64,000 bases of DNA, from positions 2,031,001 through 2,095,000 of the forward strand of contig NZ_CP134696.1 of assembly GCF_031851795.1 (NCBI RefSeq), written 5' to 3'. Every line of letters begins with the position of its first letter. The stretch's first letter is position 1. Below the pieces are notes generated by a model. The model was not told the DNA's origin, made no database searches, and saw only the letters and a list, made by a program, of their open reading frames with translations. The DNA is from Pontibacter sp. G13. GTDB taxonomy: Bacteria > Bacteroidota > Bacteroidia > J057. The position numbers and the translations under genes are program-made. This document shows positions 1 through 61,298 of this stretch, piece after piece.

Positions 1-1655
<1,655 letters not shown>

Positions 1656-1675
1656 CCCATCCGCGGACATTCAGG

Positions 1676-1713
1676 AAAAACGGACACTTCCAGCGATGGG
1701 AGTGTCCGTTTTT
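1676..1713 (+). terminator. Rho-independent terminator after metY
   Basis: A 16-bp stem with one G-U pair (arms 1676-1691 and 1698-1713) and a 6-nt loop ends in TTTTT. The A/T symmetry means it could also work in reverse, but no minus-strand gene faces it. Confidence 0.85.
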
Positions 1714-1814
1714 CATACGATCAAATAATGAACGGACGCTCTCAAATTCCTATCTTGAAGCATCCCGCATCCCCCCCAATAGATTCGCAGCAATCACACC
1801 AACCCATCTGCTAC

Positions 1815-2456
1815 ATGAAACCACTTATCCTTTCTATCCTGTCCTTGCTCTTCACCTGCTCGACTCCCCAATCAGGGGACAAGAAGCGCATCGACACCGG
1901 GGCATTTTCTATCGAAGTTCCTGCGAATTGGCACTACAAAAAGCAAAGCGGGATAGACAGCTTTGTCGGAATCATCGAGACGGAACACAGCGAACTTCAT
2001 TTCGATGTGAGCAGCATGGGCTATGCCAATCCATTGGTTCAAAGCGAAGCGGAATACATAGAATCGGGTCAATGGAAATGGACTCCTCTTCTACTGGCGA
2101 AGCGGAGTGAATGGGCTGCTGCTACCCAAAGTAAGCTTGAGGAGATTCAAATTCCCGAAGACGAGATTCAAAGGATCGATGGACGATGGATCGCGACATT
2201 GCTCCACCGTGACACCACCAAAACGATAGAAATCGAGATCCCAGCGGAGATCCTCAACTATACATGTTCCATCGACACGGTGGATGGATACTACCGAAAA
2301 ATCGTCCAGCCCAAAGTCGGAATCAAGGGCACGACAGGCATCTATATTCAGGCATTGAATGATTCCTACAATTTCAATCTCTGGGGAAAGGACCTAAACC
2401 CTCAAGAACAAGCCCAGGCGATCGAGGCTTTTGAGGGGATTCAGATTAGGAGATAG
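1815..2456 (+). CDS. Small lipoprotein of unknown function
   Basis: I do not recognise a family. I chose the ATG at 1815 because it opens a lipoprotein signal, MKPLILSILSLLFTC, with the lipidated Cys at residue 15; an upstream in-frame ATG at 1728 would bury that signal. The mature 200 residues alternate strands and charged loops (IDTGAFSIEVPANWHYKKQ), resembling the PsbP-like or DUF1795-type fold of bacterial lipoproteins, but this is only a resemblance. No catalytic motif is visible. It is monocistronic, lying between two terminators, and is probably anchored in the outer or inner membrane facing the periplasm. Confidence 0.7.
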   Translation: MKPLILSILSLLFTCSTPQSGDKKRIDTGAFSIEVPANWHYKKQSGIDSFVGIIETEHSELHFDVSSMGYANPLVQSEAEYIESGQWKWTPLLLAKRSEWAAATQSKLEEIQIPEDEIQRIDGRWIATLLHRDTTKTIEIEIPAEILNYTCSIDTVDGYYRKIVQPKVGIKGTTGIYIQALNDSYNFNLWGKDLNPQEQAQAIEAFEGIQIRR

Positions 2457-2484
2457 GAGAAATTCCAGATTCATTTAATATCAA

Positions 2485-2514
2485 AGCGAGGGAGCCCCAA
2501 CAGGCTCCCTCGCT
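2485..2514 (+). terminator. Hairpin terminator after the lipoprotein gene
   Basis: A perfect 12-bp stem (AGCGAGGGAGCC at 2485-2496 with its complement at 2503-2514) has a 6-nt loop. The following sequence has only a short T-run, so termination is likely but not textbook. Confidence 0.7.
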
Positions 2515-2641
2515 GCATGTTTCCCCAGATCCAAATGCCCCCGTCTACATTTATTCCTCGAAATGATCTAATCAGAAAATTTGAATTGGTATATTAGTCA
2601 ACCAATTTTCAAAACGCTAACAACATCCACCTTCAAACGAT

Positions 2642-3703
2642 ATGAGGGCTATGATTCAACAGACAGGTCTACCACTTCTTGCCATCCTCGCATGCTTGGG
2701 CTTACTCAGCAGCTGCGCCGAACCCAGCAGTCAGTCAGAACCAGAACCCGCACAAACCACCGTGTATCCGAGCGATGTGATCCCCTTCATGGATCAATGG
2801 AAAATCCTCTGCGGAGACGGTACCAAGGAGAAAAACCTCATCGACTACGAGCTGGACAATTTTTTCTATGTAGAAAATGACGGAGAATCGGATTGGGTTG
2901 TGTACAAAACGCCCAACTCGGGAATTACCTCCAAAACATCCAGCAACACCCGCACGGAACTGGGGCAGATCGATCGATGGACGCCCGAGATTGGCGGGAA
3001 ACTCACTGGTACTGTGAAAGTCATGCACGTTTCCACCACTGGAGATGCACGGGTAGCGGCTTCCTACTCGGTCGTTGTAGGACAGATCCATAGCGAGGAA
3101 GGCCATGAGAATGAACCGTTGAAGATCTTCTATAAGAAATTTCCGGGGCAGGAAAAAGGCTCTGTCTTCTGGAACTACGAGATCAATACCGAGGGCGACA
3201 ATTCGAAGCGCTGGGACTACTCCACGGCAGTTTGGGGATATGACATGTCCGTCATTGGCACGGCCCCCGATTCCTTCCCGGCAGAACCAGCTGATGGAAT
3301 CGCGCTTGGAGAGACTTTTTCCTACGAAATCAATGTCCACGAAGGCATCATGTACCTGACGTTTACCAGCGAAGGGCATGAGACGATGACCTTCACCAAA
3401 AATCTGCTTGAGTCTGAATTTGCCGAGGATGCGGACATTCCCCAACAGATCCGCACTCTGTACGCACCGATTGGACGAGATGGCATCGAACGCGCCCAAG
3501 CTTATGCCGGCGAGAAGCAATTCTTCAAGCAGGGCGCCTACAACCAGTCCAACGGCAAGGCCCCTGCCGACAACATCGTCTGGCACACCGGATCTGAGAT
3601 CTACGGAGGAGACATCGCCGAACAGTACGCGAATGGCTCCTACGCCGAAGTCTGGGTCCGCGAAGCCACGGTCGGCCCAAGCACAGCCCCGGAAGGAAAA
3701 TAA
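2642..3703 (+). CDS. PL7-family alginate lyase, lipoprotein
   Basis: It is predicted to cleave alginate by beta-elimination at the cell surface or in the periplasm. The lipoprotein signal ends LGLLSSC (Cys about residue 25). The three PL7 signature blocks are present in order: NTRTELG (R104, substrate-binding Arg), VVVGQIH (Q148 and H150, catalytic His region) and FFKQGAYNQSN (Y300, catalytic Tyr). The jelly-roll domain of about 300 residues fills the protein; no extra carbohydrate-binding module or T9SS tail is present, so lipid anchoring is the likely localisation. The second RTELR arginine of typical members is replaced (RTELGQ). It is a lone gene, not in an obvious alginate utilisation cluster, between two hairpin terminators. 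M/G or polyM/polyG preference cannot be read safely, although QIH is often linked with G-containing substrates. Confidence 0.88.
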   Translation: MRAMIQQTGLPLLAILACLGLLSSCAEPSSQSEPEPAQTTVYPSDVIPFMDQWKILCGDGTKEKNLIDYELDNFFYVENDGESDWVVYKTPNSGITSKTSSNTRTELGQIDRWTPEIGGKLTGTVKVMHVSTTGDARVAASYSVVVGQIHSEEGHENEPLKIFYKKFPGQEKGSVFWNYEINTEGDNSKRWDYSTAVWGYDMSVIGTAPDSFPAEPADGIALGETFSYEINVHEGIMYLTFTSEGHETMTFTKNLLESEFAEDADIPQQIRTLYAPIGRDGIERAQAYAGEKQFFKQGAYNQSNGKAPADNIVWHTGSEIYGGDIAEQYANGSYAEVWVREATVGPSTAPEGK

Positions 3704-3737
3704 ACAACCGATCTAGGCCCATCGCCTAGCAAGATCC

Positions 3738-3783
3738 CATGTTTCTGTGGGGGAGTCCTGCTTGGGGCTCCTCCTGAAACATG
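3738..3783 (+). terminator. Long hairpin after the alginate lyase gene
   Basis: CATGTTTC at 3738-3745 pairs with GAAACATG at 3776-3783, and an inner GGGGGAGTCC/GGGGCTCCTCC stem continues the hairpin. No T-tract follows, so this may be an attenuating or 3' stabilising structure instead of an intrinsic terminator. Confidence 0.55.
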
Positions 3784-3888
3784 CCCCGCTCTACACTGAT
3801 GAGCATGTGTCAATCCATATTTGGCAAGATTTTGATCATGAGGCATGAACCCAATTCGGTTGATTCGCTATATTAGGCTTTTCCAAAA

Positions 3889-6003
3889 ATGGAAATGGGG
3901 TCTCCCCTACCTAGATTGCTTCGCTTCATGGATCGCCTTGGACTACTGTGGATCATGCTGTTACCCCTTTGGGTGTCCGGTCAAAACCTAGACCGGGGCC
4001 TTATCTATGGGGAAGATCTGTTTCAGGTCAATCAGGCCTCCAATACCAACCTCATCCCCGTTCCGGACGATCCGACTCGCGGACAAGTCGTACGATTTGA
4101 ACCGCAAAATCCCCCCTACACCTTTTGGGCCAAGCGAAAGCGCGCACTCTCTATTTCCTTGTGGTTTAAGCCAGAGCGACTGGATGAGCATCCGGGCGTA
4201 CTGGTCGGCGGGCGCAATCATTTTTATTTGCGGTATCTTCCGAATCGACGCCTGCAATTCGTTCAATTCCGAAATGGAAGCGTCAAATCGGCCCACTATG
4301 TCGCGGACGGCGTATGGCAGCATGTCGGCGTCACGATCAATCCTGACGGCAACGTCCATCTGTACTACAATGGGCAATTGACGGAATCCGGCCAGATCGA
4401 TTCTTGTTGGTGGGAAAAACGTCAACAGATGATGGTCGGAGCCGATCACATGGGCGTGGCTGCGGATGGGTACCTCGACGATTTGCAGGTTTGGGATCGG
4501 GTCTTGTCTCACGAGGAAATGGAGCAGGCATTTGAGACTACCCAGAAAATTCCGCCTTTGGATCTGGGCCTATTGGCGTATCTGCCTTTGGAGCATTCTG
4601 CCGAGCCCGTTGGGCCATTTCCAGCCAAATTGATCGAGCAAAAGCATCCCACATTCGAAGCTTCCGGCGTACGATCCGGACTCCGCCTCGACATTCAGGA
4701 CGAAGAAATACTGGGTTATGAAGGATTGGAAATCGGTAGGCAAATGACGCTTTCGTGCTGGATGAGACCCGCTTCGGACTCCCTGCGAATGGCATTGTTG
4801 GGCAATCGAGCCTGGAACCTGCGATACTTGGCCCAAGCTCGGAGACTACAATTCAGCCTCTCCCTCGCCCGAAATATTCGGTCTTCTTATTATCCCATCC
4901 CCCCCAACGAGTGGGTCCATGTAGCGATAGTGGCTCACTATCATCACATGTTGGAATTCTATGTCAATGGAGAACGCATCGACCAGATTCCGCTTGCCTC
5001 CATTCCGGGAGCTTCCGAGGAGCTCTGGATCGGCAAAAATTTCTACGGAGACCCCTTTCAAGGATGGATTTCGGAGGTAGCAGTCTGGAACCGTGCACTT
5101 GATCACGCAGAAATTCGATCGGTCTATCTAGGGAAACTAGCTCCTGCCGTGGAAAAGGCCATCCAATCGACTCCTAATCTTTGGTCGTGGGTGTGGATCC
5201 TGCCATTTGTACTGGGCCTCTTGGTGATAAGCGCATGGTGGATCAGCAGAAGATCCTCATTTACCGATTCCCTGCCTCCGACCGTTCCATTGCAGGACTC
5301 TGCTACAAGGAATGCCATTCGATTTCTGGGTAATTTTCAAGCTTGGAATGCTCAAGGCGAGGATATCTCGGAGAAGTTTCCTCCCAATTTGATCCGTCTG
5401 CTGTTCATCATCCGAATGTATCCGATCTGGATGGGACGGCACGCCACTTCTGCAGATCTCAGCGAAATCCTCTGGCCCATGGACAAACCCGCTCAGCAGA
5501 AAAACAACCGAGGAACCCACATCCATCGGTTGCGAGGATTACTTCAGGGATTTGAAGGGGTATCACTGGAATTCCAGAAACGCTCCTGGCACTTGGTGGA
5601 AACGCAGCCACTCTCCATCGACGTGCTCCACACCTTCGCGGAGCTTGAAACCAACCATAAGATTCCCGGAACTCAATTGCTGCTGGACAAACGACTCTGG
5701 ATTGAAGGCATGACCCCGATTCGGGAAGCCTATCGTTCTCAGTTGGAGCAATTGCTGCGGACCGCCTGCGAATCCCAATCTTCGGTTCAGAATTGGGAAG
5801 AAGTATCGCACTTGGCGGCAAAATGGCAAGAATGGGACCCATTGGCAGAGGTTGCCATGCAATTCGAGTTTCAGGCGCTCCAACATCTGGGAGCGCGGGT
5901 CAAGGCACAGCGCGTATACGACCGATTTGCGCAGAGATACGAAAATGTGTTAGGCGAGCCCTATCCCACCAATGTGTCCGAAATACTAGCACAAATGGAT
6001 TAA
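3889..6003 (+). CDS. Membrane-spanning LamG-SARP transcriptional regulator
   Basis: Order of parts: signal peptide (to about residue 31, LPLWVSGQ); LamG/concanavalin-like domain 1 (about 85-214); LamG domain 2 (about 286-412); one transmembrane helix (about 430-452, WVWILPFVLGLLVISAWW); then a cytoplasmic half. That half matches a SARP: a winged helix at about 473-570 (IRFLGNFQAW, LLFIIRMYP, DLSEILWPMDKPAQ, THIHRLRGLL, SWHLV) and a BTAD-type helical repeat domain (about 578-704, WDPLAEVAMQFEFQALQHLG). I infer that the periplasmic LamG lectins bind a glycan and control DNA binding through the membrane. The nearest target is the sulfatase operon starting at 6102, whose upstream region holds periodic TTACCC repeats. 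The ATG at 3928 is an alternative start. Domain calls are by eye. Confidence 0.75.
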   Translation: MEMGSPLPRLLRFMDRLGLLWIMLLPLWVSGQNLDRGLIYGEDLFQVNQASNTNLIPVPDDPTRGQVVRFEPQNPPYTFWAKRKRALSISLWFKPERLDEHPGVLVGGRNHFYLRYLPNRRLQFVQFRNGSVKSAHYVADGVWQHVGVTINPDGNVHLYYNGQLTESGQIDSCWWEKRQQMMVGADHMGVAADGYLDDLQVWDRVLSHEEMEQAFETTQKIPPLDLGLLAYLPLEHSAEPVGPFPAKLIEQKHPTFEASGVRSGLRLDIQDEEILGYEGLEIGRQMTLSCWMRPASDSLRMALLGNRAWNLRYLAQARRLQFSLSLARNIRSSYYPIPPNEWVHVAIVAHYHHMLEFYVNGERIDQIPLASIPGASEELWIGKNFYGDPFQGWISEVAVWNRALDHAEIRSVYLGKLAPAVEKAIQSTPNLWSWVWILPFVLGLLVISAWWISRRSSFTDSLPPTVPLQDSATRNAIRFLGNFQAWNAQGEDISEKFPPNLIRLLFIIRMYPIWMGRHATSADLSEILWPMDKPAQQKNNRGTHIHRLRGLLQGFEGVSLEFQKRSWHLVETQPLSIDVLHTFAELETNHKIPGTQLLLDKRLWIEGMTPIREAYRSQLEQLLRTACESQSSVQNWEEVSHLAAKWQEWDPLAEVAMQFEFQALQHLGARVKAQRVYDRFAQRYENVLGEPYPTNVSEILAQMD

Positions 6004-6030
6004 ATCCCTTCTCATGGCGATAGGGGCGGG

Positions 6031-6066
6031 AATTTACCCTTCCGATTACCCCCCATTTTACCCCTG
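6031..6066 (+). promoter_or_regulatory. Three TTACCC direct repeats with 12-bp period
   Basis: TTACCC occurs at 6034-6039, 6046-6051 and 6058-6063, exactly 12 bp apart, inside the 98-bp gap between the LamG-SARP gene and the sulfatase start. The aligned 12-mers are AATTTACCCTTC, CGATTACCCCCC and ATTTTACCCCTG. Known SARP regulators bind short direct repeats spaced by about one helical turn, so this is a candidate operator for the upstream gene product. A C-rich low-complexity tract is the alternative reading. Confidence 0.5.
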
Positions 6067-6101
6067 ACCTTGCCACTTTCAGGGAGAAACAGCCATTTTC
6101 T

Positions 6102-7985
6102 ATGAATCAACTATTACCGCGTATCCGCCGGGGCATTGTCCTCCCGGTGCTGGCATTGATGGGATATTTGGGCATCCCGCTCCTTCATCAATCCCCCGCT
6201 CGAGCTGAGCATCCCTACCCCAAAGCTCAACCACCCAACATCCTTTGGATCATCACCGATGACGAACGAGCCGATGCATTGGCTTGCTACAATCGGGCAA
6301 AATTCGGCACGTCCAAGAGTCCTTTGGGATTTGTGATGTCACCCAGTCTGGATGCGTTGGCGAGCGAAGGGACCTTGTTCACCAGTGCCTATTGCAACGC
6401 CCCTGCCTGTGCGCCTTCGCGAGCATCCATGCACACCGGAAAGTATCCACACCACTCCGGCATCTATGGATTTGAGCGAAATCACAACCAACCTGATTTC
6501 TACACACCCACTGTGCCCGAGCAAATGCGCGCAGCTGGCTATGAAAACTCCCTATTCGGCAAACCCGGTTATCGGATCAATGAATACAAGAATGGAGTCA
6601 CTTGGAATGATCTCGGATTTTATGATCACAAGATCGACTACAAAATCATGAAAGCGGCCGCTGGGCACACCGATTTTGACTCCAAAAAGACCAAAAAAGG
6701 CAAAATTGAATATTGGCACTACCCTGACGGTACCGTCCGTGAGGTATTGATCGAGCGCAATGACGGTGAATTGACCCCGGAAGAGCAGGCAGCCCTTACC
6801 CAATTGGAAGAAGATCAAGACATCGTTCGTGCGTACAGCCGCAACATTTCCACCATGATCTTGGGCGGGGAAAGCTCTCAACCAGCAGACAACACCCTCG
6901 ATGCCAATATCACCAAGGCTTTCCAAAACTATCTCAGGCATCCCAACGAGATCTACCAACTCCCCAACGGCAAGGAGACGCATGGACCCGACACGCGCAA
7001 GCCTCAATTCATCAATCTAGGCTATCATTTCCCGCATAGTCCTGTCCTGCCTCCCAAATCCTTCCGCGATCGATTCAAGGACAAGGTCTACGAGATCCCT
7101 GATTTTTCGGAAACGGAACTGGAATCCTTGCCTCCACAGATGAAGACCCTCTACGACAAGATGAAGATTCATCCGATGACAGAGGATGAAAAGCAACAGA
7201 TTATCCGCGACTACTATGCATTCTGCGCATTTGGAGACTCGCTGATTGGGGCTTCCATTCAGGCATTCAAGGACTACTGCGAACAGCAAGGGCAAGAATA
7301 CCTGATCGTCATGGCCGCGGGAGATCACGGCTGGCATCTGGGGGAGCAAGGGATCAGTGCCAAATTCGGTCCTTACCAACACTCCAACCACACGGCCATC
7401 ATCGTGGCTTCTTCCATGAAAGATGCATATCCGCAAGGCCAAGTAGTGGACGAGTTTGTGGAGTTTGTGGATTTCGCGCCGACTTTCTTCACGGCGGCTG
7501 GGCTGAATGTCAACAAGTCCAAATTCAAGCACCTGGACGGGACGCCTCTTCAGCACATGATCTCAGGCAAAGTAGAGCCTCGGGATTATGTTTTGGGAGA
7601 AATCAACCACGTGTTTGGCCCGCGGGCATTCATGCGGAGTAAGGACTTTTCCTTCTCGATGCGGGTACGGAGTTGGAATGCCAAGCCCAAAAAGTCCAAC
7701 ATGGGCAAAAACATCAAGTGGGCGTTGAATGCTCCCGCCGAGGAGGTGGAGATGGTCTTATTTGACCTTCGCAGAGATCCACTGGAGCAACAGAATGTAG
7801 CAGATGATCCTGCCTATCGTGAATTGGCAGAGTGGTTCCGCAACAAACTCGGCAATATCGTACTCGGAGATGGTCGGATTGAATGTGATTGGTCGGAGGA
7901 GAATGCCTACCGCGTGGGAGACTTTGCCATTGGCGCTGACGACAAACAATTGGATATCCCCAACTCAATCATTCCGGTTCAATGA
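6102..7985 (+). CDS. Formylglycine-dependent sulfatase (S1 family)
   Basis: It is a secreted sulfatase removing sulfate esters from a glycan. The signal peptide ends near SPARAEH. The metal-binding start is PNILWIITDDERADAL, followed by the activation motif CAPSR (C103), whose Cys must be converted to formylglycine, then TGKYPHHSGIYG and the late AAGDHGWHLGEQG metal site. The length of 627 residues is longer than usual because of an insert around residues 190-300 between the activation site and the HFPHSP block. No T9SS tail is seen, so the periplasm is the likely place. Its TGA overlaps the ATG of the next gene (ATGA at 7982-7985), giving translational coupling with a secreted beta-propeller protein. 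Layout resembles choline/iduronate-2-sulfatase-like enzymes; the substrate is unknown. The formylglycine-generating enzyme is not in this window. Confidence 0.9.
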   Translation: MNQLLPRIRRGIVLPVLALMGYLGIPLLHQSPARAEHPYPKAQPPNILWIITDDERADALACYNRAKFGTSKSPLGFVMSPSLDALASEGTLFTSAYCNAPACAPSRASMHTGKYPHHSGIYGFERNHNQPDFYTPTVPEQMRAAGYENSLFGKPGYRINEYKNGVTWNDLGFYDHKIDYKIMKAAAGHTDFDSKKTKKGKIEYWHYPDGTVREVLIERNDGELTPEEQAALTQLEEDQDIVRAYSRNISTMILGGESSQPADNTLDANITKAFQNYLRHPNEIYQLPNGKETHGPDTRKPQFINLGYHFPHSPVLPPKSFRDRFKDKVYEIPDFSETELESLPPQMKTLYDKMKIHPMTEDEKQQIIRDYYAFCAFGDSLIGASIQAFKDYCEQQGQEYLIVMAAGDHGWHLGEQGISAKFGPYQHSNHTAIIVASSMKDAYPQGQVVDEFVEFVDFAPTFFTAAGLNVNKSKFKHLDGTPLQHMISGKVEPRDYVLGEINHVFGPRAFMRSKDFSFSMRVRSWNAKPKKSNMGKNIKWALNAPAEEVEMVLFDLRRDPLEQQNVADDPAYRELAEWFRNKLGNIVLGDGRIECDWSEENAYRVGDFAIGADDKQLDIPNSIIPVQ

Positions 7986-10900
7986 ATACCTTAACAAAAC
8001 TCGCATACTTATGTCTGGCCCTGCTCTTGGGGCCGGGCATCGCCCTCGCCGATTCGACGGTCTTCCATAGTGATTTCGAAGTGACGCTCGACCAACACTG
8101 GACTTCCAACAATGTCGGAGGAATGCCTCATTTTGAGCGGACACAGGCCGAATCCTACACCGGAAGTTGGTCCTTTCACATGAAGTTTTCCGCTGCGAAT
8201 CAAAAGGGAAATTTGACGACTGACCTTCCCATCGAGTGGAAACAATCGACCTCCTACCGAATCAGTTTTTGGTACAAGGCCACCACGCCCAATACCACGA
8301 CCACTTCCAATCTGAAGTTCTTCCAAGGAAACGGCACCAAGCTCGACCAGATCAATTTTGACTGGACCAGCTCGACTTGGACAAAATGGTCCGGCGAATT
8401 CATCCCCGGTGTAGACGATCCCTTGGGCAATGTGCTGTTTTCTTTCCGACCTAATGGCAGCGGAGGCGGAGAGATCTATATCGATGATGTCAAGATCGAG
8501 GAAATCATTGAGGTCGTGACCTTCGAAACGCTCCTAAAAACCCAATCCATCGCTTCGGACACCTCCATTGTCTGGCGCCAATTTGGCCCTGGGATGAGCG
8601 GCAACAACAAATCCGCCTTCTGGCATCCGACCGATCCGGACGTGTTGTTTATCGCGCCCAACATGGGCAATGCTTATCGTTCGACAGACCGGGGACTGAC
8701 CTATGAAACGATTATGGACCCAGATGCACCGGGCAACCGGACTGGGATCAGAGGACCGCGGGACATCACCAGTCTGGACTTTTCCCGCCAAGACCCCACG
8801 TTTGGATTCTGCACCGACGAGAAGAATCTGGGGCTCTTCGTGACGACCGACATGGGCAAAACTTGGCGATTGAAGACCGAGAACAACGGGACTTTCGGCA
8901 ATTCCTACTTGTCGTGTGTGGCGGTAGATCCTGCCGACGATCAGATTTGGTACGTAGGAGCGGGACGAATGCGAGATCTCGGGCACATCCTATTCTCGAA
9001 GGCTCAGCCTCACGGAACATTCGTAGACGCCCAAAGTCAAGGCAAAATCTGGAAGAGTACCAATGGCGGTGCCACATGGTCGTTGAGTGCAAGCGGACTC
9101 GATCCACAGGCAGAGGTGGAGACGATCTTGGTCGATCCCAACAATTCCTCCATCCTGTATTGCAGCACCAATTACGGATTCTACAAGAGCATCAATGCAG
9201 GCGCAACCTGGATCAAAAAGTCTACCGGACTCGGCAATGACGTGATCCGGTCCATGTCCATGCATCACGACGATAGCTCGGGAGCAGTGACGCTCTTTGT
9301 GATCAATTCAGTGATGTGGCGTGCCAATGGAAATACCGTGGCAGACTCCCTGGGAGGCGTATTCAAAAGTGTAGACGGAGGCGAGACGTGGCAAAATATC
9401 AATGGCAATCTCGCCATCGACTTGACCCAGTTTGCAGGCAACTCCTCCATCGAAAAGGCATACTACCATGTCGTGGCCTACTACTTCGGCATCACGGATG
9501 ATCAAGCCAAAAATCAATTTCCGGTTTTGCCATCCAGCTTGACCCAGCGAATCACCCAAGTCTCGGTGGACCCCAATGATGTCAATCATCTATTCTTGGT
9601 GAATATGTACTCCAATTCTTCTCGAAATGGCTTCAAGCCTGTCCAGTTGTGGCGATCAACCGACGGCGGTCAAAACTGGTTTGCAGCCGTGAGGAATGGC
9701 ACCGCATGGAATACAGGATCAGATATCGCCTATTGGCAGCAACGTGGCAATCCCATCGGTTCCAATATCAGTTTGCGCTACTTGAGTCACTGGATGGACC
9801 GCGATGACTACGAACGCAAGGCCTGTAATTTCGCCCGATTCAATGCCGACGGCACGGTCCTGCACACCCAGATGGCCAAGATTTCCCTGATGTCCTATGA
9901 CGGCGGCGACAATTGGGTAGACATCGATGATGAGATTGTGATCCCAGGCGAAGAGGCCTATGTGGGAGCAGGCAGCAGCAATGTTCCCGGACATGGATTC
10001 TATCAGCATCCAGATATGCCCGGCAAGATGTTCTGCATGGCGGGTGAAAATACCCTTTGGGTGACCATCCCGGGCGGGGACGCCATTCGTCCAAATGCGC
10101 AGGCTGCCCATTATTACAGCATCACCCCAGAGGAACAATCGCTGAGTTCCTATGTGATCGCACCGAACGACACCAACATCCGATATGCACTGTTTTTCCG
10201 TCAGCATAAACGTGGCGAGATCCTCAAAACCACGGATGGCGGACACAATTGGACTCCGATAGGAACCCCCATCCCCGCTTGGGATTTGCAGCAGCACAGT
10301 GGCGACCAGTCCGTACATCAATTGGGGTTGAAAATTGATCCAGAACGCCCAGATCATCTGTTTTTTTATGTGCCGGTTTCGAGCGGCAACATGAATTATG
10401 TAGGCAATTCGGCGACTGCATTCGGACTCCACAAATCGATAGATGGCGGCTTGACTTGGACAGAACCCAATACCGGTCTTCCTGCCTCTCTAGACGTCGC
10501 CCAATTGGTGTTTGATCCGCAAGACTCAGACATCATGTATGCCGCTATCCAAAAATCGAACGGCGGGCTTTTCAAGTCCGTGGATCAGGGGGAAACATGG
10601 AATGAAGTCTCCAGCGTATCTCCGCTGATTGGTTCCCTCGGGGTCAATGACATTCACTTTTCGGAGGACGGAAAGGTCTACATTACCACCGGGTATCGAT
10701 TCGCAGGCAAAAACGAAGGCGGGCTTTGGGTGAGCGAAGACGGTATGCTGACTTGGACCAAAATCTTGGATCATCCTTGGGTGTATCGAGTCCTGACCCC
10801 TCCATACGATCCCTCCACGATCATCACAGTGACGCTCGCCAATGGTAATATCGAAGAGATGAATCCGGGAACTTTCCTCTCCAAGGATGGAGGGGCGACT

Positions 10901-11569
10901 TGGGTGAAATGCAACACCGGAAACGGCCAGTCCGACCGAATCAACGATATCATCATCGACCAATACCAACCCGGCGTCTATTACACATCCACGTTTGGGA
11001 GCGGATGGTATGTGGCACATGATCCGAATCCCAATCCCGTATCGGGCATTACTTCCCTGGCTGTTTCCCCAAGTATTTTGCAAATGAGCTCAGGCGATCA
11101 GATGCAATTGACCGCTACGATCACTCCCACGAATGCCGATATCGACAAAGTGATCTGGTCCTCCGAAGATCCTTACATCGCGACCGTGGACAATCAAGGC
11201 ATGGTTACGGTCCATCAAGATGGTTCCACCACGATCTGGGCGAAAGCTGCTTACGGAGATGCCGAGGCTTCCGTGCCATTGACGGTGTCTACCAATCTGG
11301 AAACTCCCCGATTGGCGGATCTGGTGATCTATCCGAATCCCGCCAACACCGAAATCACCATCTCATGGAATCAAGGTGCATTTGTTCCGGAATCGTGGGA
11401 ATTGCTGGACCTTGGAGGTAGAAGGGTGTTGAGTGGAGCCATCAGCCAGAATGATTTGCGCAAACTGATGATTGAAACCAGCGATCTTCCCGATGGGGCA
11501 TACATATTGAAATTGACCCAACAGACTGAAACAATCAGCTCGATGATTCGAGTTCAACATACCAGATAA
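7982..11569 (+). CDS. T9SS-secreted beta-propeller (sortilin/GH74-like) protein
   Basis: 1195 residues: signal peptide (ALLLGPGIALA), a jelly-roll domain resembling a carbohydrate-binding module (about 24-175), then about 830 residues carrying a dozen Asp-box/BNR motifs (STDRGLTYE, TTDMGKTWR, STNGGATWS, SVDGGETWQ, STDGGQNWF, TTDGGHNWT, SKDGGATWV and others). Two fused seven-blade propellers as in GH74 xyloglucanases or Vps10/sortilin would explain this number. A bacterial Ig-like (Big2) domain follows (about 1019-1105), and a T9SS sorting domain starts at LVIYPNPANTEITISW (about 1114). It is exported to the cell surface or medium. I could not verify GH74 catalytic aspartates, so enzyme versus binding role is open. 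Stop/start overlap with the sulfatase suggests both act on one sulfated polysaccharide. Confidence 0.82.
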   Translation: MNTLTKLAYLCLALLLGPGIALADSTVFHSDFEVTLDQHWTSNNVGGMPHFERTQAESYTGSWSFHMKFSAANQKGNLTTDLPIEWKQSTSYRISFWYKATTPNTTTTSNLKFFQGNGTKLDQINFDWTSSTWTKWSGEFIPGVDDPLGNVLFSFRPNGSGGGEIYIDDVKIEEIIEVVTFETLLKTQSIASDTSIVWRQFGPGMSGNNKSAFWHPTDPDVLFIAPNMGNAYRSTDRGLTYETIMDPDAPGNRTGIRGPRDITSLDFSRQDPTFGFCTDEKNLGLFVTTDMGKTWRLKTENNGTFGNSYLSCVAVDPADDQIWYVGAGRMRDLGHILFSKAQPHGTFVDAQSQGKIWKSTNGGATWSLSASGLDPQAEVETILVDPNNSSILYCSTNYGFYKSINAGATWIKKSTGLGNDVIRSMSMHHDDSSGAVTLFVINSVMWRANGNTVADSLGGVFKSVDGGETWQNINGNLAIDLTQFAGNSSIEKAYYHVVAYYFGITDDQAKNQFPVLPSSLTQRITQVSVDPNDVNHLFLVNMYSNSSRNGFKPVQLWRSTDGGQNWFAAVRNGTAWNTGSDIAYWQQRGNPIGSNISLRYLSHWMDRDDYERKACNFARFNADGTVLHTQMAKISLMSYDGGDNWVDIDDEIVIPGEEAYVGAGSSNVPGHGFYQHPDMPGKMFCMAGENTLWVTIPGGDAIRPNAQAAHYYSITPEEQSLSSYVIAPNDTNIRYALFFRQHKRGEILKTTDGGHNWTPIGTPIPAWDLQQHSGDQSVHQLGLKIDPERPDHLFFYVPVSSGNMNYVGNSATAFGLHKSIDGGLTWTEPNTGLPASLDVAQLVFDPQDSDIMYAAIQKSNGGLFKSVDQGETWNEVSSVSPLIGSLGVNDIHFSEDGKVYITTGYRFAGKNEGGLWVSEDGMLTWTKILDHPWVYRVLTPPYDPSTIITVTLANGNIEEMNPGTFLSKDGGATWVKCNTGNGQSDRINDIIIDQYQPGVYYTSTFGSGWYVAHDPNPNPVSGITSLAVSPSILQMSSGDQMQLTATITPTNADIDKVIWSSEDPYIATVDNQGMVTVHQDGSTTIWAKAAYGDAEASVPLTVSTNLETPRLADLVIYPNPANTEITISWNQGAFVPESWELLDLGGRRVLSGAISQNDLRKLMIETSDLPDGAYILKLTQQTETISSMIRVQHTR

Positions 11570-11582
11570 TCAAGCTGTTCAA

Positions 11583-11628
11583 GGGGTTATCGACCATGTG
11601 TGAATGACAGTGTACACAAGATAACCCC
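11583..11628. other. Inverted repeat downstream of the propeller gene
   Basis: GGGGTTATC (11583-11591) pairs perfectly with GATAACCCC (11620-11628) around a 28-nt interior that itself holds TGTGT/ACACA. It starts 14 nt after the stop codon and has no T-tract; it could protect the mRNA 3' end. Confidence 0.5.
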
Positions 11629-11677
11629 GACTCAGCATCAAGACTAATAGTAGCATTCGATCAATGCGATCGACCGG

Positions 11678-11705
11678 AGAGGTTGCCACAAGCAGCCTCT
11701 TTTTG
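11678..11705 (+). terminator. Rho-independent terminator
   Basis: A 9-bp stem with one G-U pair (11678-11686 and 11692-11700) and a 5-nt loop is followed by TTTTG. It closes the sulfatase/propeller operon. The remaining 196 bases to the next start hold nothing else I can name. Confidence 0.75.
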
Positions 11706-11900
11706 TTTGGGGAAAAAATGAGAGGAGATCTGCCAGCATGAGGTTGGGTATGGCGCGAGCCCGCATATCAGTCCGACGATCTTACAGTTGAATGGGCGAA
11801 AGCAGGATGTTTCTGCGCATAGGAAATTCAGCCCACATTCCGTAAATTCAGAAAACGAGGCATGCATACGGTCTTGTTTACCTATTTCCCTACTACGCTC

Positions 11901-13232
11901 ATGAAACAATCTACTACCCCCCGAGTGTGCGTCATCGGCGCTGGTTGCTCGGGCATTACTGCACTGAAAAACCTTCTCCAAGCCGGTGTGACTGATGTGG
12001 TCTGCTACGAGCAGAATTCCGAAGTGGGCGGCAACTGGATCTTCACTGCCGGAGAGTCCCATTCTAGCGTCTGCGAAACCACGCACATCATTTCTTCCAA
12101 GACCTTGTCCGGCTACATGGATTTCCCCATGCCGGAGGACTATCCCGATTATCCCTCTCACGATCAAGTCTTGGCCTATTTTCAGTCCTACGCACGGCAT
12201 TTCAATCTGCATCCATACATTCAATTTAATACGACCGTTCAGTCTGCCGTGAAGCACCCCGACGAATCTTGGGAGATTACGCTGGACAATGGGTCTGTAG
12301 AGCGATTTGATTACCTTTTCGTTGCCAATGGCCACCACAGCGTGCCTCGCATGCCCCAACTTCCCGGTGTTTTTGAGGGGGAATTCCTCCATTCTCATTC
12401 TTACAAATCCAGCAATCCCTATCGCGGGAAAAAGGTCCTCGTGATCGGTGCGGGAAACTCAGGGTGCGATTGTGCGGTCGAGATCAGCCGTGTCGCCGAG
12501 CATGTGGGGATCTCCATTCGCAGTCCGAAATACATCGTCCCCAAGTTTTTCCTCGGGAAACCAACGGATACCTTCAACGAGGTGATGTCCTTCCTGCCCA
12601 AACCATTACTTCGCTTTTTGCAGAAGATCAGCCTGAAAATCCAGATTGGCTCCTACGAGTCCTATGGATTGAAGACGCCAGACTACCCCGTGGTCAAATC
12701 CCATCCGACGCTCAACTCGGAGTTGCTGTACAAGATCCGACATGGCAAGGTTCATCCCCGCAAAGGCATCTCGAAGGTCTCCGGGCATGAGGTGACCTTC
12801 ACCGACGGGACGACCGAATCCTACGATGTCCTCCTGGCTGCAACGGGTTACAAGATCACCTTCCCGTTTTTCGATGCTGACTTTTTGGATTATTCAGAGG
12901 CGGATCGGATTCCGCTCTATCTGCGCATGTTCCATCCTAACCACCCCAGTTTGGTGCTTATCGGCCTTTTTCAGCCTCAGGGAGCCATTTGGCCATTGAG
13001 TGACTACCAAGCCAAGCTCGCGGCGAATTACGTGATGGGGCGCTGGCAGATGCCCCAGAATGTGGAGACTTTGGCTGAGGCGGACTCGGATTTCATCGAG
13101 CGGGAATTCATCAAGTCCAAGCGCCATACCATCGAGGTTCACTATCATCCATTTTTGCGGACACTGGCCCGACAGATCCCCAAAGGGGCGCCCGAATGGT
13201 CCGGGGTTCCTTCCCAAGCCGTGCATTCATGA
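11901..13232 (+). CDS. Flavin-containing monooxygenase (FMO family)
   Basis: A class B flavoprotein monooxygenase using FAD and NADPH to oxygenate a soft nucleophile (N or S) or perform Baeyer-Villiger chemistry. FAD site: VCVIGAGCSGITALKNL near the N-terminus; then EQNSEVGGNW; the FMO signature FEGEFLHSHSY (FxGxxxHxxxY); NADPH site VLVIGAGNSGCDCAVEI; and LLAATGYKITFPF near the C-terminus. The length of 443 residues is typical. I use the ATG at 11901 because it leaves the usual short lead before the Rossmann strand; an in-frame ATG at 11862 adds 13 unlikely residues. Its TGA overlaps the next start (ATGA, 13229-13232), coupling it to an alpha/beta hydrolase and then a BKACE enzyme. The substrate is unknown; quaternary or tertiary amines are candidates given the BKACE partner. 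Confidence 0.85.
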   Translation: MKQSTTPRVCVIGAGCSGITALKNLLQAGVTDVVCYEQNSEVGGNWIFTAGESHSSVCETTHIISSKTLSGYMDFPMPEDYPDYPSHDQVLAYFQSYARHFNLHPYIQFNTTVQSAVKHPDESWEITLDNGSVERFDYLFVANGHHSVPRMPQLPGVFEGEFLHSHSYKSSNPYRGKKVLVIGAGNSGCDCAVEISRVAEHVGISIRSPKYIVPKFFLGKPTDTFNEVMSFLPKPLLRFLQKISLKIQIGSYESYGLKTPDYPVVKSHPTLNSELLYKIRHGKVHPRKGISKVSGHEVTFTDGTTESYDVLLAATGYKITFPFFDADFLDYSEADRIPLYLRMFHPNHPSLVLIGLFQPQGAIWPLSDYQAKLAANYVMGRWQMPQNVETLAEADSDFIEREFIKSKRHTIEVHYHPFLRTLARQIPKGAPEWSGVPSQAVHS

Positions 13233-14059
13233 GGTTGGAGCGAATCCATATTCCCGCCCAAATTCCCAATGGGAAACCACCACTTCTGTTTGTCCACGGA
13301 GCATTTAGCGGTGCTTGGATCTGGGAGCCTTGGATGCAGACGCTCTCCGCCCGAGGGTGGGATTGTCACGCGTTCAGCTTTCGGGGGCATGGCAACAGTG
13401 AGGTTCCTCCTCATCCCAATCGAGTGCGTGTACGGGACTATGTGGAAGACCTGAGAACGGTGTTGGCGGAGTTTAAGATTCCGCCCATTTTGGTGGGACA
13501 TTCCTTGGGAGGATTGGTGATTCAGCGCCATTTGATGGAGCGAGATGCGCCGGCCGTTGTGTTGGTGTGTCCGGTAGGGCCCAAGGGAACGTGGTATGCG
13601 ACCTTTGATTTTTTGAGGCGGCATCCGCTGGATTTCATCAAGGGATTGATCCATCTAGACTTGTACCAATCCGTCAATACGCCAGAGAAGACCCATCATC
13701 GATTCTACGCTGGTCGAGAATCTGCCGAATGGGTGGCGGCAGGTCATTCGCTGATCGAGGGAGAATCCTTCGCAGCGTATTTGGGAGATATGCTATTTCC
13801 CCGGATTCATCCTAGACAAAATCCCCAACCCCCTATGCTGGTAGTCTGTGGTGAGCTAGACCAATCTGTGGCTCCCAGAACTGTCAGATTTACCGCCCAA
13901 TTTCAACAAGCCGAACTACTCATGCTACCCAATCAGGGCCATATTCCCATGATGGTAGCTGACCGAGATACCATAGCGAGTCAAGTCAATGATTGGCTCA
14001 GCCGACAATCCGTCCCGATTGTGAACTCCATTCCTCCTGTTTCACCTCCATCTCCATAG
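13229..14059 (+). CDS. Alpha/beta hydrolase
   Basis: A cytoplasmic serine hydrolase of the alpha/beta fold. It shows the oxyanion motif LLFVHGAFSGAW, the nucleophile elbow GHSLGG (S92), the acid region VVCGELDQSV and the histidine in LPNQGHIPMM. Size (276 residues) suits esterases, lactonases and acyl-hydrolases. The ATG at 13229 is chosen because it forms the ATGA overlap with the monooxygenase stop; an upstream in-frame start at 13196 would add 11 residues inside that gene. A hydrolase after a Baeyer-Villiger-type monooxygenase is a familiar pairing (ester or lactone opening), so this may process the monooxygenase product, but that is inference. Confidence 0.8.
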   Translation: MRLERIHIPAQIPNGKPPLLFVHGAFSGAWIWEPWMQTLSARGWDCHAFSFRGHGNSEVPPHPNRVRVRDYVEDLRTVLAEFKIPPILVGHSLGGLVIQRHLMERDAPAVVLVCPVGPKGTWYATFDFLRRHPLDFIKGLIHLDLYQSVNTPEKTHHRFYAGRESAEWVAAGHSLIEGESFAAYLGDMLFPRIHPRQNPQPPMLVVCGELDQSVAPRTVRFTAQFQQAELLMLPNQGHIPMMVADRDTIASQVNDWLSRQSVPIVNSIPPVSPPSP

Positions 14060-14061
14060 CT

Positions 14062-14928
14062 GTGTCCGACCGAATCATCATCACCGCTGCCCTCACGGGC
14101 GTACTCGCCACTCGCAATCAAAGCCCACACATTCCCTACACCCCCGAGGAAATTGCCGAGGAGGGCCGAAGGGCTGTGGAAGCGGGTGCGAGTATCCTTC
14201 ACATTCATGCCCGTCAACCCAATGGGCTGCCAGCCTATGACGTGGAAACTTATCAGCAGATCGATCAGGCCGTCAAAGCTGCCTGTCCCGGTGTGATCAT
14301 CAATTACTCCACGGGTGCGATCGGGATCTCCAACGAGGAACGAATCCATCATGTGGATGCGCTCAGTCCCGATATGGCCGCACTCAACATGGGGTCGATG
14401 AACTATGCGATCTACTCCAGAAAGTCCAAGCAGTTTCACCACGATTTCGTCTTTGCCAATCCCTTCAAGGATATCCAATTTTTTCTGGAGCGGATGAATG
14501 CCGCAGGTACGCGCCCAGAAATGGAATGCTTCGATACAGGGCATATTCACAATTCTGCTCCCTTGATCGATATGGGATTGCTTCAGGCTCCTTTCAATTA
14601 CAGCTTGATCATGGGCGTCCTGGGCGGCATCCCGGCCACGACTGAAAATCTAGTCCATCAAGTGAGTCAGCTTCCGGCTCAGTCGCACTGGCAAGTCATC
14701 GGCATCGGTCGCAAGCAATGGAAAATGATTGCAGCAGCCATCACGATGGGAGGAAATATCCGGGTCGGATTGGAGGACAATCTGTATCTTCCAGACGGTA
14801 CACTTTCTCCCTCTAATGGAAAAAGCGTGGAAGAGGCCGCTCAACTAGTCCGGACCCTTGGGGCCAAAATCGCCAGTATCGAGGAGGCCCGTGCCATGTA
14901 CCAATTGCCCATTCAGGTGGATGCCTGA
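14062..14928 (+). CDS. Beta-keto acid cleavage enzyme (BKACE, DUF849)
   Basis: The family condenses a beta-keto acid with acetyl-CoA to give acetoacetate and a new acyl-CoA; 3-keto-5-aminohexanoate and dehydrocarnitine are known substrates. The Zn-binding HxH is H47 and H49 in SILHIHARQ, and the catalytic Glu region is VGLEDNLY (E238). The DTGHIHN and LGGIPAT blocks also fit. The start chosen is GTG at 14062, two bases after the hydrolase stop, because the family begins with a short lead before IIITAALTG; an ATG at 13993 would overlap the upstream gene by 67 bases and add an unlikely tail. Its place as third gene behind an FMO and a hydrolase suggests catabolism of a keto acid carrying an amino or other polar group. 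Confidence 0.87.
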   Translation: MSDRIIITAALTGVLATRNQSPHIPYTPEEIAEEGRRAVEAGASILHIHARQPNGLPAYDVETYQQIDQAVKAACPGVIINYSTGAIGISNEERIHHVDALSPDMAALNMGSMNYAIYSRKSKQFHHDFVFANPFKDIQFFLERMNAAGTRPEMECFDTGHIHNSAPLIDMGLLQAPFNYSLIMGVLGGIPATTENLVHQVSQLPAQSHWQVIGIGRKQWKMIAAAITMGGNIRVGLEDNLYLPDGTLSPSNGKSVEEAAQLVRTLGAKIASIEEARAMYQLPIQVDA

Positions 14929-14954
14929 AGGGACAAACCCACTCAAAAACCATT

Positions 14955-15449
14955 ATGTTACTAAGGAACAACCAATTAATAAGCACCATAGATATTTCCA
15001 TTTCATTGGCTTTTTATAGAGACTGCCTAGGATTCTCTGTCATTCAAGCAGACGAAGATTGTGGGATTGCCTCACGCGATGATACCAAGATTTTTCTTTG
15101 GAAATGCGAACCCATGATTGATCCACAACCCACTAGCTGTACAATTTTTGTCTCAGAGATCGATGCCTTGTATCAGGAAATGAAGGAGGCAAATGTCATT
15201 CACCCAAACGGTCCTCTGGCAGATCAACCTTGGGGAGTGAGGGAATTTTCGATTTTGGACATCGACGGAAACTTGATCCGCTTCGGACAGCTAATCACAG
15301 GCGTACAAAAAAAAAATGAACCCCGGCTATCCAACAGGACAGACCGGGGAGATCCACGACTCAATTTTCGAGAAGACGTGTCAGGGGTTCTTTTTACCGC
15401 AGGGAGACTACCTCGCTATGGTAGGCCGTTTCTGGTCCACAGAAAGTGA
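14955..15449 (+). CDS. VOC-family (glyoxalase/bleomycin-resistance-like) protein
   Basis: Residues 1-115 form one VOC module: QLISTIDISISLAFYRDCLGFSV at the start and GVREFSILDIDGNLIRFGQ at the end, the usual beta-alpha-beta-beta-beta pattern that dimerises to build a metal or ligand site. The module normally ends at about 115-125 residues. Here the frame continues for 45 residues through an A10 run (15307-15316), through the terminator hairpin of the opposite gene and into antisense of the C25 peptidase end, with no domain-like sequence. One extra A would give a stop after residue 121. The tail is therefore probably not a real domain; an indel, slippage or sequencing error at the homopolymer are options. 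Ligand unknown. Confidence 0.7.
   Translation: MLLRNNQLISTIDISISLAFYRDCLGFSVIQADEDCGIASRDDTKIFLWKCEPMIDPQPTSCTIFVSEIDALYQEMKEANVIHPNGPLADQPWGVREFSILDIDGNLIRFGQLITGVQKKNEPRLSNRTDRGDPRLNFREDVSGVLFTAGRLPRYGRPFLVHRK
15307..15349 (-). terminator. Rho-independent terminator of the C25 peptidase gene
   Basis: On the minus strand a CCCCGG/CCGGGG stem (arms 15344-15349 and 15321-15326) is followed by TTCA and ten Ts. It lies 45 bases past the peptidase stop and explains the A10 run seen in the VOC gene on the plus strand. Confidence 0.75.
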
Positions 15450-17688: not shown

Positions 17689-17945
17689 GCGAGTGAATGA
17701 TTGGTAGGAAACTTGAGAAGCTGTCCATCGCGTGTTCTTTCTTGAGAAGAACCCCATACGCAACTGCTTCTTTCTACCCCCAAAACTGACTATTCCCCCA
17801 CCCCCACAAAAGCGGGGATACCCCTGAAAATGAATTTCCGCATAACTACCAATTTACCCCCGAACTAATACTTGCAGGTTGAATTTATTGTCAAGTGTTT
17901 ATGCCTGATTTTCAGCGAATACCGCCTACCCAATCGCCCATTCGA
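17689..17945 (-). other. Upstream region of the C25 peptidase gene
   Basis: No gene is seen. On the minus strand it holds several G-runs of the type GGGGGTA or GGGGT (around 17776-17861), including GGGGGTAAATT at 17851-17861, which is the reverse complement of the AATTTACCC core found upstream of the sulfatase. The spacing here is irregular, so I do not call it an operator. Confidence 0.3.
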
Positions 17946-17985
17946 GCAAAAACAAACCCTCAACCCCACTATGGGTGGTCGAGGG
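17946..17985 (-). terminator. Rho-independent terminator (minus strand)
   Basis: On the minus strand CCCTCGACC pairs with GGTTGAGGG (arms 17977-17985 and 17957-17965) and is followed by TTTGTTTTTG. It ends the transcript carrying the 18300-18833 gene and the broken domain copy. Confidence 0.7.
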
Positions 17986-18017
17986 CTATCCACAATACAA
18001 TGAATCTTGCGTCTCAC

Positions 18018-18290
18018 TTAGAGCTTGAACCAGCGAGACATAGGCGCCGTGTGTGGTCCCGCATAGGGCACGCGCACCTGTGAAATATCTTGCGAGAAGG
18101 GAAGGAATCATTTTCCAGACTCCGTCATGATTCCCCTACCCAATACCTTGCCAGTTTTGGGATCTTGCACAATCACCCAAGGGGGAACAAATTTATGACG
18201 TAATTTCGGCAAATCCACACAGGAGGTACAGAGTGGTTTATTTTCGAGATTCGCAGCAATAGGGAGCGGAGAAAATTGGGCGCAATACAT
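18018..18290 (-). pseudogene. Broken copy of the C25 peptidase C-terminal domain
   Basis: Read from 18290, the frame gives PIAANLENKPLCTSCVDLPK, then VPPWVIVQDPKTGKVLGRG and ESGK, then an in-frame TGA at 18108-18110. The same frame continues FLPFSQDISQVRVPYAGPHT to a TAA at 18018. The C25 peptidase tail reads LEPQLVCAKCEELPKLKQRL, VPPFVILTDPKSGKVLGRS, then ASELSSVRVTFCGPET. The two align without gaps across the TGA, which sits at an Ala position. So this is a duplicated domain interrupted by a stop, without its catalytic part. The first ATG lies three codons after the stop of the 18300-18833 gene and in the same frame. A live 60-residue protein with two conserved cysteines (CTSC) cannot be fully excluded. 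Confidence 0.75.
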
Positions 18291-18299
18291 ACTCGAACC

Positions 18300-18833
18300 T
18301 CACCCCGTAGAAGTTCCGTGCATCCCCAAGGTATCGATCAATCGATCCATGAACTCGGATTCTCCGTCGCTGAATTCTACCGCTCCGAATCCCAAAAATC
18401 CCCCTTCCTTGGCGGCACGGGCTACTTGTTCGGCGATGTCCAATAGCCATGTCTTGTAGGAAAAGGAGGATTCAGGAGCTTTCTTATCCAGCAGTTTGTT
18501 CAGACGAGGGGCATCCTCCAGCACCAGATCGATCAAATCATGCGGCTTTCTCGCTCCTCGATCTTCGAAGTACTGACGCACGTGTCGTTGAAGTCCCTCT
18601 ATCCATTCGCGATCCGACATAGAGGTATCCTCCCTTTTTCCGATGGTGGAAACTAGTTCGTCATGGGGAAATCGCTCTGCACCGTGGTGATAAGCCGATG
18701 AACTCGCGAACATTTCTTTCATGGTTCCCGTGATGCCGCTTTTTCCAGCAGCGGACATGGCAGCACCCACCATGGCGGGGTAATAGCTGAGAAACTCCCA
18801 TTCCTCCGGCTCAAAACGTTCTTTGATGGTCAT
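18300..18833 (-). CDS. Hypothetical helical cytoplasmic protein
   Basis: 177 residues with no signal peptide or membrane segment. It begins MTIKERFEPEEWEFLSYYPA, continues with an Ala/Gly-rich helix (MVGAAMSAAGKSGITGT), and ends in the helix AVEFSDGESEFMDRLIDTLG. The last part faintly resembles TerB-like or DUF533-type helical domains, but I do not assign a family. Codon usage matches the neighbours. It diverges from the RND efflux operon with 196 bases between the starts. Its stop lies 9 bases before the ATG of the broken C25-tail copy in the same frame, so the pair may be the result of one rearrangement. Confidence 0.65.
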   Translation of the reverse strand: MTIKERFEPEEWEFLSYYPAMVGAAMSAAGKSGITGTMKEMFASSSAYHHGAERFPHDELVSTIGKREDTSMSDREWIEGLQRHVRQYFEDRGARKPHDLIDLVLEDAPRLNKLLDKKAPESSFSYKTWLLDIAEQVARAAKEGGFLGFGAVEFSDGESEFMDRLIDTLGMHGTSTG

Positions 18834-19029
18834 GAAAAATCAATTGAAGGAAAAATATACCGACCCTTTGAACTGATAGCGATTGGATGCCCGATTCATC
18901 CGCAGGAATCAATTCAATAATTCAAAAATCGTACATCCCAATGTTTTGTTTTTCCAAAATCATATTCAACAGTTATCCAAGCTCTATGGTTAATTAGCCA
19001 TCATCAACCATTTCAGTAAACCACATTCT

Positions 19030-23477: not shown

Positions 23478-23479
23478 AC

Positions 23480-61120: not shown

Positions 61121-61298
61121 ATATTCAGCGTGTTCAGTTTTCGGCAACATAGTTCTCCTTGGTGGAAAAGTCATTCCCCCTACCCCATTCCAGACAAATG
61201 TCACGTCAATTTGAACATAATTGCCCTACCCATCGAGTTACCACAAATGATTCTAATGAGTTTTTGGGTGGCATGGCTACAAGTACCCCCCTCTCAAG
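61121..61298. other. Short gap before element B
   Basis: Sequence upstream of the sulfatase start (minus strand). No feature other than the likely sulfatase promoter, not located. Confidence 0.3.

Follow-up and report, generated by a model that had tools for sequence, protein, structure and literature searches.

Within a 64,000-nucleotide stretch of the Bacteroidota genome Pontibacter sp. G13 (hereafter the window: positions 2,031,001 to 2,095,000 of contig NZ_CP134696.1, assembly GCF_031851795.1), we describe a gene whose 704-residue product is probably a membrane-spanning one-component activator of the SARP type, acting on the polysaccharide genes around it. The open reading frame (ORF) is confirmed by the ORF listing at exactly 3889–6003 on the plus strand (coordinates are window positions, plus strand unless stated). 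A first-pass annotation had read the protein as two periplasmic LamG domains joined through one transmembrane (TM) helix to a SARP winged helix and a BTAD domain, and had proposed a direct polysaccharide-to-transcription sensor; we confirm the observation itself and find its interpretation partly supported. Prediction gives the domain order, the TM helix and the SARP-type fold, while comparison places the protein, as a divergent member, in an apparently undescribed Bacteroidota family of TM-SARP-like proteins and finds its relatives in a sugar-gene context.

Pfam matches Laminin_G_3 twice in the window protein (E = 2.2e-44 for the whole protein), at residues 85–210 (4141–4518) and 283–409 (4735–5115), with E values of 7.7e-22 and 3.3e-22 for the respective halves alone, so that the two LamG domains claimed at the outset are borne out. 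The single TM helix likewise holds: residues 435–453 (5191–5247), followed by two arginines, have a mean hydropathy of 2.08 and form the only strong hydrophobic segment, the maxima elsewhere being 0.62 for segments starting at residues 61–400 and 1.02 for those starting from 477. Here and in the relatives, topology was called from hydropathy and charge only, with a mean hydropathy of at least 1.6 as the threshold for a TM segment. The core of the N-terminal hydrophobic region (residues 11–29) reaches 1.35, under that threshold, and the probable signal peptide at residues 1–31 (3889–3981) is therefore called by inspection; starting instead at the ATG at 3928 (M14), the protein would have a more typical-looking one. 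Pfam finds no histidine kinase, receiver or AraC domain in the protein at E ≤ 1, and gives no kelch match. Combining a TM helix with a predicted DNA-binding domain in one chain, and having no kinase or receiver, the protein appears to be a transmembrane one-component regulator.

The SARP winged helix and BTAD domain assigned to the cytoplasmic half stand by modelled fold and fall short by sequence. The BTAD Pfam model scores 18.3 bits against the whole protein and 21.0 bits against residues 477–704, under its gathering cut-off of 22.1 bits, and at E ≤ 0.1 it matches only 8 of 40 rows, the window protein counted; from sequence alone the SARP/BTAD identity would be weak. A single-sequence AlphaFold prediction of residues 456–704 was set aside (pLDDT 53, and under 50 all the way up to model residue 153), and the model used covers residues 477–704 in a 68-row alignment of the window protein and 67 relatives (mean pLDDT 74.8, pTM 0.50). 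Over model residues 1–90, seven of the nine ten-residue blocks have a pLDDT of 83–92 and the remaining two 66 and 76; at model residues 102–128 it drops below 50. Three helices and a two-strand wing make up an OmpR/SARP-type winged helix (residues 477–572; 5317–5604), which is followed by a BTAD-like helical domain (residues 579–704; 5623–6000). The third helix of the winged helix (residues 534–552; 5488–5544), DSSP helix 58–76 of the model, is the putative DNA-recognition helix and carries the N-N-R conserved in the family.

The structural comparison with SARP/BTAD proteins suggested in the first-pass annotation was run with this model. Foldseek returned six PDB matches at E ≤ 0.001, its best, and all are AfsR or EmbR chains: AfsR 8hvr and 8k60 at 5.5e-5 to 9.7e-5, EmbR 2fez and 2ff4 at 1.7e-4 to 5.2e-4. 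The TM-scores are modest (0.42–0.54 by query) and the root-mean-square deviations (rmsd) high (6.7–9.6), as expected if the winged-helix and BTAD-like domains pack differently. In VIA-align, where Z values of the size found are middling and rows less than 1 apart are tied, AfsR came top (Z 11.0, 193 residues aligned, rmsd 5.7) and EmbR reached 9.9 over 197 residues; winged-helix proteins matching roughly the first 100 residues included RitR (10.5), CssR (9.9) and TcpP, CadC and SaeR (9.8), with rmsd of 2.2–2.5, as well as ToxR (8.8). The structural case, as modelled, rests on AfsR and EmbR, which span the whole model (residues 1–228). When the SARP profile alone was compared with PDB sequences, the best match was weak (SaeR, E = 0.17).

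Membership of the TM-SARP-like family is supported by profile and tree. When the window protein is left out of the family profile, it scores 113 bits (E = 1.4e-34), whereas the highest-scoring SARP-like protein from elsewhere reaches 67.6; in a 49-row tree the 30 rows labelled beforehand as TM family, the window protein included, split from 19 distant SARP-like rows with support of 100/99. An adhesin-like LamG surface protein with a false SARP match is scarcely credible on this evidence: LamG is all that Pfam gives above its cut-off, and the window genome holds seven further weak matches to the LamG region (E from 9.8e-6 to 0.43), but the AfsR/EmbR structure match, the profile score and a TM-SARP architecture common to the relatives already largely refute it. 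Family members are laid out as an N-terminal domain, a kelch propeller, a TM segment and a SARP-like part, in open frames of 815–913 residues among 79 named relatives; these loci, from Larkinella, Spirosoma, Dyadobacter, Mucilaginibacter, Pedobacter, Chitinophaga and others, come from a contig scan with a profile (A2), of which the best 80 of 159 relatives' stretches were kept. Over the SARP part, the window protein is 19–27% identical to its relatives.

The C-terminal half of the window protein finds matches at E ≤ 0.01 in 10 of 296 genomes of the phylum, its own included; five genomes besides its own match at E = 6.5e-11 or better, mostly through long open frames with a C-terminal SARP-like part. 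A second profile (A1, eight rows) matches at E ≤ 1e-6 in 27 of 395 genomes of the phylum, 26 of 149 in the class to which genome G290 belongs and 32 of 150 in the family that includes genome G303; for the window's class, 5 of 295 match at E ≤ 0.001. Many of the weaker matches are other SARP-like proteins, and at E ≤ 1e-40 the counts are 11 of 395 for the phylum, 3 of 149 for the G290 class, 30 of 150 for the G303 family and 2 of 295 for the window's class, the first and last including the window's own genome. Eight relatives' genomes searched whole hold one or two copies each, and in the window genome the C-terminal half was found only once. No credible match to that half occurs in 12 genomes of the window's taxonomic family (best E 0.149), although a single-sequence search may miss divergent copies. 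None of the Pfam or NCBIfam models run names the SARP-like part of the relatives scanned, which yield kelch matches only, and among the open-access titles and abstracts listed for SARP/BTAD proteins or LamG/kelch sensors at Bacteroidota SusC or polysaccharide loci we found none that describes this family, which is not proof of absence.

Two routes to further members were given up. A single-protein search gave matches at E ≤ 1 in 8 of 60 relatives' genomes, the window's own included; on reading, those of L010 and L012 proved unrelated, and those in the other five genomes (E 0.03–0.5) were taken as chance matches. A count of PF03704 matches (38 of 60 genomes) was discarded because many were short and 10 of 14 control genomes also matched, seven of them over the cut-off. 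Some family loci are irregular: L063 (8328–12864 of its own stretch, minus strand) has tandem TM-SARP-like genes, one with kelch and the other (685 residues) with no recognised sensor domain; in L060 (7333–9956, plus strand) the gene is broken across two overlapping frames by a frameshift or a sequencing error; L169 (6313–10070, plus strand) has a full-length gene followed by a 277-residue ORF with a SARP-like part and no strong TM segment; and in L069, from a genome of the window's class, a 52-residue frame (G403:C133:3429–3578) matches the end of the SARP-like profile at E = 7.5e-13 and may be a decayed copy or a contig artefact.

The predicted topology recurs across the family. Ahead of the SARP part, 77 of the 79 named relatives have a segment reaching the 1.6 threshold, and the remaining two come to 1.48 and 1.54; lysine and arginine are commoner after than before the segment in 76 of the 77. 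The N-terminus is hydrophobic in 68 of 79, and no named relative (0 of 79) has a second segment over the threshold between residue 76 and the TM region. We compared them with 12 distant SARP-like proteins, one of which, having an N-terminal SARP part, was excluded: none of the other 11 reaches 1.6 ahead of the SARP part, one being borderline at 1.59. Two of the 12 have a segment above 1.7 elsewhere, and judging from their first residues the 12 resemble ATPase- or TPR-type proteins.

The sensor, by contrast with the SARP part, is not shared. Kelch models match nine of the ten relatives scanned whole, and a short GGYG-type motif, like that of kelch repeats, lies upstream of the SARP part in all 79 loci; Laminin_G_3 matches none of the ten. 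The count that the first-pass annotation had proposed, of LamG-TM-SARP proteins beside sulfatases in close kin, so far stands at one, the single-sequence search having given no credible match in the 12 same-family genomes. We also considered whether the whole family might be LamG-based, using the relatives' N-terminal domains from 24 of the 27 loci that remain after de-replication of the 79 at 70% identity (the start pattern missed L232, L243 and L256). That idea was dropped: hhalign gives these domains a probability of 0.7% against the window LamG, Laminin_G_3 is found in none of the 24, which have no convincing Pfam assignment, and their best PDB match has E = 0.051. Weak lectin hints are confined to Laminin_G_2 in L061 (E = 0.02) and Gal-bind_lectin in two of the 24 (best E 0.0081). 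Since the relatives scanned mostly have kelch and none of them Laminin_G_3, and these comparisons show no similarity between their N-terminal domain and LamG, the window sensor differs from theirs, which suggests that the sensor is swappable, twin LamG domains in the window protein standing where relatives carry kelch.

The sugar-degradation setting claimed for the window protein holds for its named Bacteroidota relatives too. Among 53 immediate neighbours at the 27 de-replicated loci, the Pfam matches listed include at least eight to GH92, seven to TonB plug, four to GH99, three to GH95, two each to GH43 and GH2 and one to SusD_RagB. For counting we built eight hidden Markov models (HMMs) from the neighbour clusters (GH99, GH92, SusC, SusD, GH95-like, GH3, GH95 and GH43), assigning by hand the cluster labels beyond those of Pfam, and took control ORFs from ten genomes, which cover part of the relatives' genera, at 40 stretches chosen arbitrarily; a Pfam scan of 60 control proteins listed at least one SusD_RagB and at least three CarbopepD_reg_2 matches, and the HMM counts were used instead. 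A sugar-locus gene directly adjoins the regulator (±1) in 20 of the 27 loci, against 38 of 535 control ORFs, and lies within ±3 in 25 of the 27, against 64 of 375; for all 79 loci the figures are 68 and 76. GH92 adjoins the regulator in 41 of the 79 loci, 26 times downstream on the same strand and 15 times divergently, compared with 1 of 615 control ORFs. Of the 155 neighbours at ±1, 12 are SusC, compared with 15 of 615 controls; in a further set of 39 regulators, which overlaps in part in its genomes, 24 have a SusC-like gene within ±4. SusD (1 of 155 neighbours against 7 of 615) is hence not enriched directly beside the regulator; within ±3 it occurs in 24 loci.

In the window itself, the regulator gene sits between a lyase gene and a sulfatase gene. 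The sulfatase neighbour of the first-pass annotation is indeed there downstream (6102–7985; Pfam E 3.9e-32; CAPSR, formylglycine-type motif), but the setting had been under-described, for the gene directly upstream encodes a PL7-type alginate lyase (Alginate_lyase2, 2642–3703; Pfam E 5.3e-49) with a lipoprotein-like start and the motifs QIH and FFKQGAYNQ, which we take to be those of PL7-type lyases. PF08787 has three matches over its cut-off in the window genome. A gap of 98 bp separates regulator and sulfatase, and the sulfatase gene overlaps by 4 bp the next gene, for a secreted BNR/Sortilin-type propeller protein with Big_2 and a type IX secretion tail (7982–11569; Pfam, NCBIfam). A hairpin lies ahead of the lyase gene (2485–2514; −26.4 kcal/mol, z −6.35) and is terminator-like on the minus strand; another, terminator-like with 11 pairs and a T-rich tail (z −1.55), lies past the propeller gene (11676–11702), the total of terminator-like sites in the stretch being no higher than in shuffles. 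The sequence TATATTAG occurs just twice in the 64 kb, both times on the plus strand, before the lyase gene (2590–2597) and before the regulator gene (3869–3876), and two copies also turn up in 6 of 100 shuffles; it resembles what we take to be the Bacteroidota −7 promoter box, and is a possible promoter or operator element shared by the two genes. Rfam gave no match at its gathering threshold in positions 1–20000. Farther off, the window encodes a second sulfatase with a CSPAR motif (59525–61204, minus strand), about 50 kb away on the opposite strand; an HlyD-type periplasmic adaptor and an AcrB-type RND transporter followed by a 478-residue ORF (19030–24910); and a gingipain-type Peptidase C25 protein (15394–17763, minus strand), possibly the type IX secretion peptidase PorU.

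Several observations weigh against reading the window protein as an activator of its own sugar locus. The protein forms a long branch in the tree, so that its exact placement is unsure, and the program warns on joining such rows; moreover, F4, D55 and V67, near-invariant in the family, are replaced in it. Together with the low identity to relatives and the BTAD score under cut-off, these features would also suit a SARP fold without DNA binding, working as a membrane-anchored adaptor or a sequestering decoy, but G5, L48, W53 and, in the third helix, N63-N64-R65, all invariant or near-invariant in the family, are retained and the model is confident there, and we regard such a role as quite improbable. 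As to the sugar link, the neighbour families were selected within the very neighbourhoods then counted and the loci share descent, and the hhalign comparison shows no similarity of the relatives' N-terminal domains to LamG. Members from other classes (G290, G187, G148, G239, G802, G832 and G877) have no recognised sugar neighbour, as judged by reading rather than by Pfam; genes beside their loci (L059–L063, L166, L167 and L169) include proS, SDR, epimerase, ABC and others, so that sugar regulation may not extend to the whole family. That pattern, the fact that LamG domains do not always bind glycans, and direct neighbours in the window other than SusC and SusD would fit a TM SARP-type regulator that senses a non-sugar cue (a peptide, for instance, or a surface protein or envelope stress) and whose place near the lyase and sulfatase genes is incidental. 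The PL7 lyase and sulfatase are nevertheless its immediate neighbours, and the named relatives are strongly tied to GH92, GH99 and SusCD loci; we consider a non-sugar cue unlikely. Finally, a strong hairpin (3738–3783; −29.3 kcal/mol for a 76-nt stretch, z −2.99, equalled in 2 of 200 shuffles) parts the lyase gene from the regulator gene, so that the lyase may be its own unit and a single operon of all four genes is less well supported, and no clear repeated operator was found upstream, three intergenic stretches yielding one 9-nt pair with a spacing of 60.

For the window protein as a SARP-type activator of its locus, we propose the following mechanism. Both LamG domains would lie on the periplasmic side and have an oligosaccharide as ligand, which the PL7 lyase and the sulfatase encoded next door could plausibly release from algal polyuronate or a sulfated glycan; it is from these neighbours that alginate or sulfated-glycan fragments suggest themselves as ligand. 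Binding might change, by way of the single TM helix, how the protein pairs or is oriented, upon which the cytoplasmic winged helices would bind DNA near the promoters of the lyase, regulator and sulfatase genes. The BTAD-like part may help to dimerise the protein and to engage RNA polymerase in the manner of AfsR, a contact carried over from AfsR by fold only. What we infer in this scheme is the ligand, the direction of the signal, the site on DNA, the contact with polymerase and that the outcome is activation, not repression.

Set beside known regulators, the window protein combines features of several. SARPs in the classical sense work in the cytoplasm and are known chiefly in Actinobacteria and from gene clusters for antibiotics. 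With the SARP region of AfsR and with EmbR the protein shares a winged helix and a BTAD-like helical domain, matched over the full length of the model, and it differs from them in its membrane anchor, its extracytoplasmic sensor and a BTAD Pfam score under the gathering level; the predicted helix at 435–453 leads us to class it with membrane-bound, SARP-like proteins and not with the classical SARPs. ToxR, CadC and TcpP, all three among the VIA-align matches, are likewise membrane-anchored one-component regulators with an OmpR-type winged helix. Their DNA-binding domain is N-terminal, whereas the predicted one of the window protein is C-terminal and has an added BTAD-like domain. SusR, with which the first-pass annotation had contrasted the protein, is itself described as sitting in the membrane, its sensor in the periplasm and its DNA-binding domain in the cytoplasm, the latter without significant similarity to other known ones (PMC3878776). 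By that description the two would be alike in having a periplasmic sensor, a TM segment, a C-terminal cytoplasmic DNA-binding part and polysaccharide genes nearby, the sensor of the window protein being LamG; the working principle is common to both, and the earlier contrast was too strong. Hybrid two-component systems (HTCS) at polysaccharide loci also have a single chain that both senses sugar in the periplasm and binds DNA (PMC3878776), a plan that the window protein resembles, although the kinase, receiver and AraC domains were not detected in it. A 2023 survey finds transmembrane transcription regulators enriched in Bacteroidota, with many hybrid types, and BTAD, SARP and kelch are absent from its main text (PMC10269533). 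The nearest likeness is to the kelch-TM-SARP-like proteins of Bacteroidota themselves, which share a homologous SARP-like part, the TM helix, the topology and, in the named loci, sugar-locus neighbours, and which bear an N-terminal domain and a kelch propeller where the window protein has two Laminin_G_3 domains.

On balance we lean towards regarding TM-SARP-like proteins as an unrecognised class of Bacteroidota polysaccharide-locus regulators, beside SusR, HTCS and ECF sigma/anti-sigma pairs, in which the sensor can be exchanged, mostly kelch and here twin LamG. To our knowledge, an obvious regulator is missing at many sugar loci of environmental Bacteroidota, and the sensor-TM-SARP layout beside GH92, GH99 and SusCD genes offers direct candidates, while a swappable sensor would matter for predicting substrates and for building biosensors. 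If this is so, the periplasm would directly drive a DNA-binding module that is known mainly from antibiotic regulators in the cytoplasm of Actinobacteria; with the SARP module presumably working from the membrane, a single molecule could carry an extracellular cue to DNA.

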